Origin: an uncultured Eubacteriales bacterium
GTDB taxonomy: Bacteria > Bacillota > Clostridia > Christensenellales > CAG-138
Length of the DNA stretch: 64,000 nucleotides
Assembly: GCA_900319345.1 (NCBI GenBank)
Contig: ONNZ01000005.1
Location: forward strand, 1 to 64,000
Direction: 5' to 3'
The position numbers and the translations under genes are program-made. Within the stretch, counting starts at the first letter, position 1. Each line of letters begins with the position of its first letter. Below the pieces are notes generated by a model. It saw nothing but the letters and a program-made list of their open reading frames with translations, was not told the DNA's origin and ran no database searches. Below, piece by piece: positions 28,385-56,175 of this stretch.

Positions 28385-28414
28385 TTGCCTCATGGGTAAG
28401 AAGTATACTATACT
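28385..28414 (+). promoter_or_regulatory. Promoter of the NadD fusion gene, leaderless arrangement
   Basis: TTGCCT (28385-28390) and TATACT (28409-28414) are 18 bases apart. The ATG follows exactly six bases after the -10 box and no ribosome-binding site is visible, so transcription should start at or next to the A of ATG. Confidence 0.62.
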
Positions 28415-28420
28415 ACACAC

Positions 28421-29971
28421 ATGAAGATAGGTATTTTAGGGGGCAGTTTTCACCCCATCCACAACGGACATCTGGATATGGCCCGCAGCGCTCGAGACGC
28501 CCTGGGCCTTGATGAAGTTATCCTCATGGTGGACCGTATCCCGCCCCATAAGGAGCTGGCCCAGGGAGCGACCAGCCAGCAGCGCTATACAATGGTACAG
28601 CTGGCCTGCGCAGGAGAAGTCGGATTCGTGGCTTCCGATTGGGAGTTGAACCAAAGCGGCACCAGCTATACGGCCCTCACCCTGACGCACCTGAAGGAGG
28701 AGCACCCTCAGGACCAGCTGTATTTCATCATGGGCAGCGATATGCTCCGCTCCCTTACCTCCTGGTATCATCCGGAGATCGTCTGCGAAAAGGCCCATCT
28801 GGTCTGCATCTGCCGGGCCGGGCAGGACGGCGGCGAGGCGGAGGCTGCCAAACAGGTCACGGAGCTGTTCGGCGCCCAAGTGACCCTCCTCCCCCCCGTG
28901 CGAGAGCTTTCCTCCACCGAGATTCGGAATCGTTTAGCTGATGGACGGCCCATCTCCGGCCTTGTGCCCCAGGCTGTGGAACGGTACATCTACGAGGAAG
29001 CCCTGTACACGAACGAACAGCTCGTGACGTTGACCGATGCCATGCGAGATACTCTGAAGCCCAGCCGCTTCCGGCATGTGCTGGGCGTGGAGATGACGGC
29101 GGTACAGCTGGCGGAGAATTTAGGCGCCGACGGGCAGAAGGCTCGATTGGCCGCCCTGCTCCACGACTGCGCCAAGTATCTCTCCGTCACCGAGCAGGCC
29201 ATCCTGGCCAAGCGGGACGGCAGCACCCTGGACCCCCAGAAGGACGATATGATCCTCCACGCTCCTGCCGGCGCCACCCTGGCCAGAGAGCAATACGGCA
29301 TCACGGACGACGAGGTTTTGGAGGCCATCCGCTATCACACCACCGGGACGGAGGGCATGACGCTGCTGGACGAGATCATCTGGGCAGCGGACCTCATAGA
29401 GCCTGGCCGAGACTATCCCTCCGTGGACAAGCATCGTGCCCTGCTCCTCTCCGCCAACGATCCCGTCAGCTTTGAAAAGGGGCTGCTACTTGTATTTGAC
29501 GACAATATCTGCTATATTCAGAGCAGAGGACAGGGCATCAACCCTGCCACCCTCCGCGCCAGGGACTACCTGAAGCGCAAGACCACAGCAAAGGAGACAT
29601 ACATGGAAACCCTGAACAAGGAAACGATCCTTCAGCTCTGCAGGATCCTGTACGACAAGAAGGCCCTGGACATCCGGGCCATCGAAGTGACGGACAAGAC
29701 CATCATCGCCGATTGGTTCATCGTCTGCAGCGGCCGCGGCGTGCCCCAGGTGAAGGCTCTCTCTGACGAATTGGAGGAGAAAGCCGCTGAGATGGGCCTT
29801 ATCCCCCGCCGAAAGGAGGGCTATCAGGAGGGCCGCTGGATCGTGCTGGACTTTGGAGATCTTCTGGTGCATCTGTTCCATCCGGAGGAGCGCACCTATT
29901 ATAATCTGGAGCGCCTGTGGGACGACGGGCAAAACGTGATCACCTACACCGAGGAAGGAGATGCGAAGTAA
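28421..29971 (+). CDS. nadD: Fusion: nicotinate-nucleotide adenylyltransferase - YqeK HD hydrolase - RsfS ribosome silencing factor
   Basis: The 516-residue frame holds three proteins that are usually separate. Residues 1-195 are NadD ([15 protein letters not shown] with HNGH, and [10 protein letters not shown]), which makes deamido-NAD. Residues 200-385 are a YqeK-type HD hydrolase ([27 protein letters not shown]), a diadenosine tetraphosphatase family. Residues 395-516 are RsfS/Iojap ([42 protein letters not shown]), which blocks ribosomal subunit joining. There is no stop between them. An ATG at residue 395 has AAGGAG six bases upstream, so RsfS may also be made alone. deoC follows with a one-base overlap. 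Confidence 0.93.
29591..29605 (+). promoter_or_regulatory. Internal ribosome-binding site and start for a separate RsfS
   Basis: AAGGAG (29591-29596), a six-base spacer and ATG (29603-29605) lie in frame inside the fusion, exactly where a normal RsfS N-terminus ([13 protein letters not shown]) begins. Confidence 0.65.
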
Positions 29972-30615
29972 TGGAACTGAACAAATACATCGACCATACC
30001 CTGCTGAAGCCGGAATCCACCCATGAGGACATCCGCCGGGTCTGTGAGGAAGCCAAGGCTTACAACACCGCCAGCGTCTGCGTGAACCCCATCTTCGCTT
30101 CCTTCGTTGCCAAGGAGCTTGAAGGCACGGATATCAAGACCTGCTGCGTGGTGGGCTTCCCACTGGGGGCCACCCCCTCCGCCATCAAGGCCGCGGAAGC
30201 GAAGCTGTGCGTGGAGAATGGAGCCCAGGAGATCGACATGGTCATCTCCGTGGGCGCTGCCCGGGAAGGCGACTGGGAGTATGTGGAAAAGGATATCAAG
30301 ACCGTGGCCGATGCCATCCGGGGCAAGGCTCTCCTAAAGGTCATCATCGAGACCTGCCTCTTGAACGACGAGCAGAAGGTGAACGCCTGCCTGTGCGCCA
30401 AGAACGCCGGGGCCGACTTCGTGAAGACTTCCACCGGCTTCTCCACCGGCGGCGCCACCGTGGAGGACGTGGCCCTCATGCGGGGCGTGGTAGGCGACGA
30501 GCTGGGCGTGAAGGCCTCCGGCGGTATCCGCTCCAAGGAGGCGGCCGAAGCCATGATCGCCGCCGGCGCCAGCCGCATTGGCGCCAGCTCCTCCAAGAAG
30601 ATCATCGAAGGCTGA
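29971..30615 (+). CDS. deoC: Deoxyribose-phosphate aldolase
   Basis: The enzyme splits 2-deoxyribose-5-phosphate into acetaldehyde and glyceraldehyde-3-phosphate. The 214-residue protein has [10 protein letters not shown] at the start, [20 protein letters not shown], the Schiff-base lysine in [16 protein letters not shown], and KASGGIRS. Its ATG overlaps the TAA of the fusion gene by one base (TAATG) with GAAGGAG upstream. deo-type nucleoside genes are not adjacent. Confidence 0.97.
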
Positions 30616-53008: not shown

Positions 53009-53037
53009 TTTTCAGCCTCCCCGGATGGTGGTATACT
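53009..53037 (+). promoter_or_regulatory. Promoter of the PIG-V-like gene
   Basis: TTTTCA (53009-53014) and TATACT (53032-53037) are 17 bases apart. The ATG at 53044 lies six bases after the -10 box; an in-frame ATG at 53038 touches it. The region overlaps the divergent spoIVA promoter. Confidence 0.56.
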
Positions 53038-54393
53038 ATGCGTATGAACAAACCGGTCCGCGTCATTCGAATAGTTGTGCCCGTCCTGTGCTGCATCGTC
53101 TTCGGCTGGTGGCTGTCGAAGCAGGATTCGATCCTGTCATTGGGCACGCTGTCCGCGCTGTTGAGCGCGGGCCTGTTCGCCTTGACCCTGACCGCCGCCC
53201 TGACCCGGCTGGCCGATGGTCGCTTTGACAGTGGGTTGCCTTCCTGTTCCACCCCAGACATGCCCCGCCAGCGGCTTGGGGCCTGGGGCATCCTCGTGGG
53301 ATTCGGCATTGTGGTGACGCTGGTACAGTATCTCGTCATCTCTCTGCTGTCTCGCCCCCACGGGGATTTCCTGCACAGTTTTCAGCAGCTGTATTACCGC
53401 AGCGACGTGGCCCACTATATGGGCATCGCCCGGCACTGGTACGTGAACGCAGGGAACGAACGGCTGCGGTTGGTGTTCCTGCCCCTCTATCCTCTGGCGG
53501 TCCGGCTGACCACCTGGAACAAGGACTATTTCACCGGGGCCCTTATAGCCGCCCAGGTCTTCTCCCTGGCCCTGCTGCCCGCCGCATACGAGCTGTTTCG
53601 GGTGGATCTGGACCGCCGTTCGGCCATGGCCTGTGCCCGGGTGCTGTTCCTGCTCCCCGGGGCCGCCTTCCTGCGGGTGCCCATGAGCGAAGGCCTGTTC
53701 CTTTTACTGACGCTGCTGGGCGTGCTGTTCGCCCGCAAGAAGCGCTTCCTGCTGGCCGGCCTGTTCACTGCCCTGTCCGCCCTGACCCGGTCCCTGGGCG
53801 TCCTACTACTGGGGTTGCTGTTCCTGGAGATGCTGTCCTCGTTCTTGGATGAATACCGAAAGGACAAGCAGGCGGCCCTTCGGCTGGTGCCTGGATATAT
53901 CGCGAGTCTCCTGCTGGGCTGCTGCGGTACGGCCCTCTATCTATTCATCAACTGGCAGGTCTCCGGCCATCCCTTGACCTTCCTCACCTACCAGCGTGAG
54001 AACTGGAACCAACAGCTGGGGTTCTTCTTCAACACGGCGTCCTATCAAGTGGAATACGCCTTCATGTATTGGAACAGCGGAGACCTGAAGTCGGTGCTGT
54101 CCCTGAGCCTCCCCAACCTGGTCTGCAGCTTCGGTACCCTGGCGTTGCTGTATACGGATCGAAATAAAATGCAGCTCAGCTATCTATTGTGGGCCCTGGT
54201 CTACTTCGCGATCTCCATCGGCGCCACCTGGCTTTTGAGCGGGCCCCGGTATCTCGCCATGGTGTTCCCCCTGGCGTTGGCCATCCGGCGAATATGCAAA
54301 ACGACTTTCTCCGAGGTACTCATGGAGATAGGTCTCCTGGTAACCCAGACAGCGTACCTGCTGATGCTTGCTCTCGATATGTACGTTTACTAA
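53038..54393 (+). CDS. PIG-V-like membrane mannosyltransferase (GT-C fold)
   Basis: This 451-residue protein has about ten membrane helices and a PIG-V-like layout. An acidic extracytoplasmic loop (YYRSDVAHYMGIARHWYVN) follows early, and later come FLPLYPLAVRL, RVPMSEGLFLLLTLLG and LTRSLGVLLLGL. Bacterial relatives are predicted mannosyltransferases using lipid-linked sugar. Either ATG 53038 (GGTGG six bases upstream) or 53044 (six bases after the -10) may be used. Substrate unknown. Confidence 0.78.
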   Translation: MRMNKPVRVIRIVVPVLCCIVFGWWLSKQDSILSLGTLSALLSAGLFALTLTAALTRLADGRFDSGLPSCSTPDMPRQRLGAWGILVGFGIVVTLVQYLVISLLSRPHGDFLHSFQQLYYRSDVAHYMGIARHWYVNAGNERLRLVFLPLYPLAVRLTTWNKDYFTGALIAAQVFSLALLPAAYELFRVDLDRRSAMACARVLFLLPGAAFLRVPMSEGLFLLLTLLGVLFARKKRFLLAGLFTALSALTRSLGVLLLGLLFLEMLSSFLDEYRKDKQAALRLVPGYIASLLLGCCGTALYLFINWQVSGHPLTFLTYQRENWNQQLGFFFNTASYQVEYAFMYWNSGDLKSVLSLSLPNLVCSFGTLALLYTDRNKMQLSYLLWALVYFAISIGATWLLSGPRYLAMVFPLALAIRRICKTTFSEVLMEIGLLVTQTAYLLMLALDMYVY

Positions 54394-54403
54394 ATAATAT
54401 ACG

Positions 54404-54432
54404 TGGACAAATCCAGCCCCTTCCGGTATACT
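54404..54432 (+). promoter_or_regulatory. Promoter of the ABC exporter, leaderless arrangement
   Basis: TGGACA (54404-54409) and TATACT (54427-54432) are 17 bases apart, and the ATG follows after exactly six bases with no ribosome-binding site. Confidence 0.68.
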
Positions 54433-54438
54433 GGACCT

Positions 54439-56175
54439 ATGGAAAAGTTGCGTCGATTTTTAGCCTATTACGGGCCCCACAAGGGGCTTTTCATCCTGGA
54501 CCTTGCCTGCGCGCTGGTGGTCGCCGCCGTGGACGTGGCGTTCCCCCTTGTGACTCAGTACATCCTGCGCACCCTGCTGCCCGCCATGACGGCGGACAAC
54601 GGCCTGGTCCGGGTATTCGTGATCCTGATCTGCTGCCTCATCTGCGCCTACATGATGCGGGCCGTCCTGCAGTTCGTCATCGGCTACTGGGGCCACCGGC
54701 TGGGCACCTTCATCGAAGCGGACATGCGGCGGGACATCTTCACCCACATCCAGACCCTGCCCTTCGCCTTCTATGACAGGATCCGCACGGGCAAGCTCCT
54801 CTCCCGGATCACCAACGACCTCTTCGAGGTGACGGAGCTGGCCCACCACGGCCCCGAGGACGTGCTCATCTCCACCATGACGATCCTTGGCGCATTCATC
54901 GCTATGTTCAGCATCGAATGGCGGCTCGCCCTGTGCCTGTTGATCCTGCTGCCGGTCATCGTCTATTTCGTGATGCACACCCGGCTCAAGATGCGTCGCA
55001 CCAGCCGCCAGGTGAAGGAGCGGATGGCGGAGATCAACGCAGACATCGAAAGCTCCATCTCCGGGGCCAGGACTGCCAAGGCCTTCGCCAACGAGAAGTA
55101 CGAGATCAAAAAGTTCGAGAAGGGCAACAAAAACTTCTTGTCCGCCAAGAAGGATTTCTATAAGGTCATGGCCGTCTTCAACAGCGGCACGGAGTTCTTC
55201 CTGGCCATGTTCAACGTGGCGGTCCTCGCCTGCGGCGGATACCTGATCTATCGGCGGCAGCTGGACACGGTGACCCTCATCACCTTCACCCTGTACATCT
55301 CCACCTTCACCTCCCCCATCAAGCGGCTGGCCGCTTTTGCGGAGCAGTACATGATCGGCATGGCCGGGTTCACCCGGTTTCTGGAGATCATGGACACCAA
55401 GCCCGCCATCGAGGACAAGCCTGACGCAATCGAATTGAAGGACGTGAAGGGCGACATCGCCTTCTCCCACGTGTCCTTCGCCTACAACGAGGGGCAGAAC
55501 GTCCTGCAGGACGTGGACCTCTTCATTCCCGCCGGGAAGACCCTGGCCCTGGTGGGCCCCTCCGGCGGCGGCAAGACCACCCTGTGCCACCTGCTCCTGC
55601 GGTTCTACGACATTCGGGAGGGCAGCATCACCATCGACGGCCACGACATCCGGGACGTGACCATGCGCTCTTTGCGGGAGAACGTAGGCATTGTGCAGCA
55701 GGACGTGTTCCTGTTCGCGGACAGCATCCTGGAGAACATTCGATACGGACGGCTGGACGCCACCGACGAAGAGGTCGTCGAGGCGGCCAAGCGGGCCCAC
55801 ATCCACGAGGAGATCATGACCTTCCCCGACGGGTACGAGACAAACGTGGGCGAACGGGGCATGCTCCTGTCCGGCGGTCAGAAGCAGCGGGTTTCCATCG
55901 CCCGGCTGTTTTTGAAGAATCCGCCGGTGCTGATCCTTGACGAAGCCACCTCCGCCCTGGACACCCTGACCGAAGCCGATATCCAGCACTCCTTCGACGA
56001 ATTGAGCAAAGGCCGGACCACCCTGGTCATCGCCCACCGGCTCTCCACTGTGCAGAATGCGGACGAGATCGTGGTCATCGACGAGCACGGCATCCAGGAG
56101 CGAGGCACCCACGAGGAACTGCTGGCCAAAAACGGCCTCTATTCGGGCTTCTATCAGGCCACGCTGCGGGGCTAA
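54439..56175 (+). CDS. ABC transporter, permease and ATP-binding domains in one chain
   Basis: This 578-residue half-transporter, probably an exporter working as a dimer, has six membrane helices (about 1-310) and an ATPase domain. The ATPase domain has VGPSGGGKTTLCH (Walker A, about residue 373), VQQDVFLFADSI (Q loop), LLSGGQKQRVSIAR (signature), PPVLILDEATSALD (Walker B) and VIAHRLSTV. The substrate is unknown; lipid or drug export is usual. It starts six bases after a -10 box. Confidence 0.94.
   Translation: MEKLRRFLAYYGPHKGLFILDLACALVVAAVDVAFPLVTQYILRTLLPAMTADNGLVRVFVILICCLICAYMMRAVLQFVIGYWGHRLGTFIEADMRRDIFTHIQTLPFAFYDRIRTGKLLSRITNDLFEVTELAHHGPEDVLISTMTILGAFIAMFSIEWRLALCLLILLPVIVYFVMHTRLKMRRTSRQVKERMAEINADIESSISGARTAKAFANEKYEIKKFEKGNKNFLSAKKDFYKVMAVFNSGTEFFLAMFNVAVLACGGYLIYRRQLDTVTLITFTLYISTFTSPIKRLAAFAEQYMIGMAGFTRFLEIMDTKPAIEDKPDAIELKDVKGDIAFSHVSFAYNEGQNVLQDVDLFIPAGKTLALVGPSGGGKTTLCHLLLRFYDIREGSITIDGHDIRDVTMRSLRENVGIVQQDVFLFADSILENIRYGRLDATDEEVVEAAKRAHIHEEIMTFPDGYETNVGERGMLLSGGQKQRVSIARLFLKNPPVLILDEATSALDTLTEADIQHSFDELSKGRTTLVIAHRLSTVQNADEIVVIDEHGIQERGTHEELLAKNGLYSGFYQATLRG

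Follow-up and report, generated by a model that had tools for sequence, protein, structure and literature searches.

A Stop-Free NadD-YqeK-RsfS Frame with a Conserved Candidate Internal Start for RsfS in Uncultured Clostridia

Introduction

RsfS is usually regarded as a small free protein. Genes in which an inner in-frame start yields a C-terminal isoform are known from IF2 alpha/beta, CheA short and SctQ. The genes nadD, yqeK and rsfS have a published synteny, in which they lie in this order and close together but as separate genes. A fusion of the first two is described in mycoplasmas (JCVISYN3A_0380), where the YqeK domain hydrolyses wrong NaAD analogues (PMC9426524); RsfS occurs nowhere in that paper (0 occurrences). 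YqeK hydrolyses Ap4A (cited in PMC7549365), and RsfS binds uL14 and blocks the association of ribosomal subunits (PMC9503621). More than 90% of non-CPR bacteria carry an rsfS gene (PMC12641178).

We analyzed a stretch of 64,000 nucleotides (the window; contig ONNZ01000005.1, assembly GCA_900319345.1) from an uncultured Eubacteriales bacterium, in which all three genes form one frame. Its product resembles JCVISYN3A_0380 in having NadD joined to YqeK in one chain, and differs in carrying RsfS as well. Like IF2, CheA and SctQ, the gene has one frame with two candidate starts; unlike them, its short product would be a complete conserved protein, encoded by a separate gene in close relatives. A search of openly available papers found no description of the three-part fusion. 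Such proteins may already carry automatic database labels, for example "multifunctional fusion protein". The first-pass annotation had treated the three-part joining as a whole. Only the RsfS joint is new, because NadD-YqeK joining proved common in the window's family and order and is already known from mycoplasmas (PMC9426524).

Results

Translation of the frame revealed no stop inside its 516 codons (Table 1). The first-pass annotation had proposed a single stop-free NadD-YqeK-RsfS frame, and this stands: the 516-residue product scored above the curated cut-offs for NadD (TIGR00482, 171.2 bits, cut-off 112.45), YqeK (TIGR00488, 123.8 bits, cut-off 70.15) and RsfS (TIGR00090, 103.4 bits, cut-off 56.9). 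Pfam matches were CTP_transf_like at residues 5-171 (86.1 bits, cut-off 21), HD at residues 216-327 (59.8 bits, cut-off 22) and RsfS (PF02410) at residues 406-500 (102.8 bits, cut-off 21.6), the last spanning model positions 3-98 of 98. NCBIfam NF005519 (PRK07152), which spans NadD and YqeK, gave 255.3 bits, under its cut-off of 315 bits; both of its domains are present in the window protein, yet the protein is outside that family by score. Since no stop separates the parts, any chain that begins at the NadD start and is translated in full includes RsfS. No second RsfS was found elsewhere in the window's genome, a draft of 68 contigs. Downstream, the frame's TAA stop and the ATG of the next gene overlap (TAATG, 29969-29973); by eye we take that gene to resemble deoC.

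Table 1. Coordinates of the fused locus and its predicted start signals within the window.
Feature	Position	Strand	Remarks
-35-like hexamer TTGCCT	28385..28390	+	In 9/9 fused loci of the window's genus
-10-like hexamer TATACT	28409..28414	+	6 nt before NadD ATG; predicted leaderless start
nadD-yqeK-rsfS fused frame	28421..29971	+	516 codons + TAA; 516 residues
NadD domain	28421..29014	+	Residues 1-198; TIGR00482, PF01467
YqeK (HD) domain	29015..29536	+	Residues 199-372; TIGR00488, PF01966
YqeK end and joint	29537..29602	+	Residues 373-394; within one helix 375-396 (AlphaFold2)
Inner Shine-Dalgarno AAGGAG	29591..29596	+	In 9/9 fused loci of the window's genus
RsfS part, inner ATG to stop	29603..29971	+	122 aa; TIGR00090; PF02410 at 29636-29920

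The presence of the three-domain frame in related genomes was then surveyed, and it was found in the window's genus (g1), in a second genus of the same family f1 (g2), in genus g44 of family f19, and in family f32. Among 12 g1 genomes, the window's own counted, nine carried it full-length and stop-free, G008 was split, and G006 and G009, both approximately 70% complete, gave no match; the frame is thus intact in 9/10 g1 genomes with a match. According to the first-pass annotation, the fusion would count as an assembly or strain artefact if every close relative had the proteins separate. The eight other stop-free g1 genomes show that this is not the case. In G008 the YqeK frame enters rsfS in another reading frame, and the gap between the matched parts, measured from the same residue, is 46 nt as against 45 nt in the fused relatives.

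Across family f1, 20 of 92 loci were fused, comprising 9/10 in g1 and 11/18 in g2 (one of the latter, L045, is cut by a contig end). Of 96 loci at the outset, two belonged to different families, one was a duplicate and one was incomplete; the remaining 92 have both parts. Several long shared open frames in the f1 search listings (e.g., L083, L091, L094) were considered as fusions and turned out to be split on sequence. On a family tree of 90 rows, which omits the truncated L045 and a partial match (L091), two changes are required to explain the fusion label, and the simplest history is a gain on two occasions with no loss. In g44, 6 of 18 examined loci were fused, these 18 being the top of the order-level listing and not a random sample.

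Family f32 was sampled through 74 genomes, of which 72 matched and gave 70 loci; with L213, which ends before RsfS, removed and G477 and G505 not included, 69 loci remained. Long open frames were checked on sequence, and many were fused while some were not (L224, L227). In total, 33 of the 69 loci were stop-free across all three parts, and these were concentrated by genus: g119 (19/19), g94 (5/5), g158 (3/3), g57 (2/2), g139 (2/2), g128 (1/2) and g100 (1/2). The other ten genera were split throughout (e.g., g104 with 0/14 and g72 with 0/8). A quick tree of 92 rows (69 f32 loci, 17 of the 92 f1 loci and six of the 18 g44 loci) required at least 10 state changes, gains and losses pooled, of which seven were forced by well-supported branches. 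This suggests that the fusion arose several times.

At the level of the class, 243 genomes with a completeness of 90% or more were surveyed. Among the matches listed, only the window's own genome showed the full-length stop-free frame; the class search shows long-linker fusions as separate matches, so this survey is not exhaustive. None of 13 inspected stretches (12 from outside the order) contained the three-part fusion. Two of them contained YqeK-RsfS fusions, L320 (G603) and L321 (G668), from two other families of the class. Both resemble the window's gene in their stop-free YqeK-RsfS frame; unlike that gene, L320 has NadD as a separate frame, and no NadD was found in the L321 stretch.

The joint between YqeK and RsfS had been said by the first-pass annotation to hold AAGGAG and an in-frame ATG, and to allow both a fusion and a free RsfS. 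The first point is borne out: the inner ATG (29603-29605) is codon 395 of the frame, and the pair is kept in 9/9 fused g1 loci. Within the window's long ORFs, AAGGAG or AGGAGG stood 4-9 nt ahead of an in-frame internal ATG at three of 389 such ATGs, the RsfS site counted. By pairing energy the site ranked eighth of the 389, itself counted, which is not extreme. A Shine-Dalgarno (SD) match of at least 4 nt with an ATG was present at the RsfS boundary in 9/9 g1, 11/11 g2 and 4/4 scanned g44 fusions, so that all 20 fusions of g1 and g2 retain an SD-led, in-frame ATG for RsfS. Five of the six g44 fusions keep at least GGAG with the ATG (L193 has GGAG), and L197 has the ATG with no clear SD. In g2 the distance from GGAGG to the ATG was 4 nt in 11/11 fused loci and 6 or 8 nt in seven split loci, the latter read by eye. 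A spacing of 4 nt is short by the usual rule.

Constancy of the SD codons was considered as stand-alone proof of the inner start and rejected as too weak, since several other columns in g1 are equally constant: conserved Lys columns were all AAG in 6/16 cases and conserved Glu columns all GAG in 6/26, SD codons included. Modelled accessibility of the inner start was the highest among the in-frame ATGs of the ORF in L001-L004 and not in L005-L009. Because the three-domain frame is real and its inner SD and ATG are conserved, production of a fusion plus free RsfS is plausible, as the first-pass annotation had supposed. The inner start is SD-led, and we infer its use in the window's organism.

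The sequence ahead of the NadD ATG points to an initiation mode that the first-pass annotation did not mention. TTGCCT and TATACT are separated there by an 18-nt spacer, and no SD is present. A promoter scan is weak by itself (two such sites in 3.4 kb against 1.3 expected from shuffling), so support for a leaderless start lies in the conservation of the layout: in each of the nine fused g1 loci TATACT stands 6 or 7 nt ahead of the ATG, and a clear SD is absent. Leaderless-type starts precede the fusions in 9/9 g1 loci, in 10/10 g2 loci with an intact start (L045 lacks its start and was left out) and in 4/4 scanned g44 loci, and L193 and L197 (g44) have similar sequence before nadD. A published criterion for leaderless genes combines a TANNNT motif, about 12 nt ahead of the start, with the absence of an SD (PMC3160421). 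The window's nadD, whose TATACT ends 6 nt short of the ATG and which lacks an SD, fits this description, and the starts with this layout are leaderless candidates. The outer start is probably leaderless. Many split loci also show starts of this type, so the layout is not peculiar to fusions; in most f32 fusions, judged by eye, nadD is instead preceded by an SD, often CGGAG.

Two more ORFs of the window (53038-54393 and 54403-56175) have TATACT exactly 6 nt before an inner ATG with no SD found, at 53032-53046 and 54427-54441. This arrangement occurred in 3/55 long ORFs kept in the window, nadD counted, versus 19/2260 ATGs on both strands. Leaderless genes may occur regularly in the window's genome.

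The f32 fusions differed at the RsfS boundary. A start with an SD of at least 4 nt near RsfS was present in 3/33 fused versus 35/36 split loci, and one with at least 5 nt in 0/33 versus 16/36. The stretches between matched domains, 28 to 152 residues long, contained 0 stops in 2706 codons, whereas shuffling gave a mean of 120 (minimum 93) and the other two frames of the same linkers held 98 and 121. Of 62 genomes searched for RsfS, 60 gave a match, exactly one each, and 59 of these 60 genomes have a fusion. No second free RsfS was found in those 60 genomes, which are mostly drafts, so that a second copy might be missed. With no RsfS found in the fused f32 genomes apart from the fused copy, the RsfS function, if it is needed there, must fall to the fusion. 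Recurrence across genera and the f32 pattern together indicate that the fusion recurs and can apparently become obligate, and in part of f32 it looks permanent; the first-pass annotation had not raised this.

Rates of change within g1 differed along the frame, with dN/dS of 0.11 for NadD, 0.15 for YqeK, 0.38 for the YqeK tail and joint, and 0.04 for RsfS. At 0.38-0.39, constraint on the joint is only moderate. Spacer length had one value in the nine g1 loci and two values, 3 nt apart, in the 11 fused g2 loci, compared with four values in seven split g2 loci and, in split genera, seven values in seven loci, five in five, ten in 11 and nine in 13, although the genera are unmatched for divergence. 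A side observation concerns the RsfS part (29603-29968; L002-L009), in which synonymous divergence was below that of NadD-YqeK in the same g1 frame (ratio 0.12-0.69) in six fused g1 pairs, unlike most pairs in other genera.

Motif and contact residues were compared over 58 fused proteins (L045 left out). We take HxGH and SSTxxR to be the NadD motifs, and their residues H14, H17, S164, S165, T166 and R169 were present in 9/9 g1 proteins. H219, H248, D249, H280, H306 and D324, presumably the HD metal residues of YqeK, were present in 58/58. In Staphylococcus aureus RsfS, the reported uL14 contacts are E70, W77, D81 and Y98 (PMC9503621), which by a count made by eye align to E466, W473, D477 and Y494 of the window protein. 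The last three were conserved in 58/58 proteins, and position 466 was Glu in 25/25 proteins of g1, g2 and g44 and Asp in 33/33 of f32. Separately, the NadD motifs vary in f32, where R169 is Lys in 21/33 and H14 is Thr or Gln in 12/33 (e.g., L208, L218); NadD activity may be altered in these fusions.

AlphaFold2 modelled the joint of the window protein as a continuous helix (residues 375-396, mean pLDDT 86.6). Confidence in its RsfS part was lower: pLDDT lay at 61-86 by block, and the C-terminal 20 residues fell below 55. One f32 protein was modelled with a low-confidence tether (394-411), probably disordered, followed by a confidently modelled RsfS with a mean pLDDT of 86.8.

Discussion

We consider it likely that the window's gene is a genuine fusion of recent origin that yields two products. 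From the relatives we infer an ancestor with overlapping or touching yqeK and rsfS genes, in which the ribosome site of RsfS lay within the end of yqeK, and a small indel would have brought the two into one frame. A transcript beginning at or beside the NadD ATG would now yield the fusion without a leader, while 30S subunits binding AAGGAG at 29591 would start at 29603 and produce a free RsfS of 122 residues. In the fusion, NadD would still serve NAD synthesis and YqeK the hydrolysis of dinucleotides. Free RsfS would bind uL14 and block subunit joining, as the fusion probably would too. With persistence of the fusion the inner start could be lost, leaving RsfS as a tethered C-terminal domain, as in the fused f32 genera.

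A possible, though rather doubtful, alternative is that the fusion is a tolerated accident. Loss of a stop between coupled genes would cost nothing because free RsfS would still be made, and the RsfS tail on NadD-YqeK would be idle. Such an origin fits the recurrent state changes, the split relatives with overlapping or touching genes, the retained SD and ATG, and the faster evolution of the joint than of the domains at amino acid sites. A spacer whose length is fixed over g1 and stays within 3 nt over fused g2 is less expected of an idle tail, as are f32 linkers that are plainly held open and carry the sole RsfS found.

The inner ATG could also be an unused relic, with RsfS working solely as a C-terminal domain, as it apparently does in f32. 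That family suggests that RsfS can exist solely fused, and the 4-nt spacing in g2 is short. All 20 fusions of g1 and g2, however, retain the SD and ATG that the f32 fusions have lost, and we regard a fusion-only gene as unlikely in the window's genus.

A regulatory link of NAD, Ap4A and ribosome silencing, as suggested in the first-pass annotation, is possible, and the inner start might, as also suggested there, set the dose of RsfS. The coupling itself might be adaptive, with NAD synthesis and Ap4A hydrolysis taking place on the silenced 50S subunit, or with the NAD/Ap4A state controlling silencing. The at least seven state changes forced by well-supported branches of the 92-row tree would agree with such selection, as would the HD residues, conserved in 58/58 proteins together with three of the four contacts to uL14. 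The variable NadD motif residues of f32 (R169 being Lys in most) weigh against it, and the modelled f32 tether, being probably disordered, argues against tight allostery, so that an adaptive coupling seems improbable to us. A more specific version, which we offer as speculation of low probability, is that NAD metabolism has taken over RsfS as a module for docking on the ribosome. Every RsfS in the fused f32 genera, and every full NadD-YqeK chain in the window's genus, would be tethered to its partner, so that NAD synthesis and Ap4A clearance would sit on the silenced 50S. In the window's genus, the balance between leaderless and SD-led initiation, which would itself respond to 50S silencing, would then set the proportion of fusion to free RsfS.

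An assembly error, frameshift or strain artefact can be dismissed: the genomes are mostly draft MAGs, but eight further g1 genomes share the stop-free frame at 80-96% identity, and it is also present in further genera and families.

Under the two-product reading, the genera in which RsfS was found solely as the tail end of an enzyme of NAD metabolism, and what would be living intermediates with an inner start, open two testable questions: how adjacent genes become one protein without loss of a needed product, and whether the old nadD/yqeK/rsfS neighbourhood reflects a functional tie. The named near relatives of the window's organism are uncultured "Clostridiales" or "Clostridia" bacteria, several of them labelled as coming from goat, sheep, cattle or buffalo gut.
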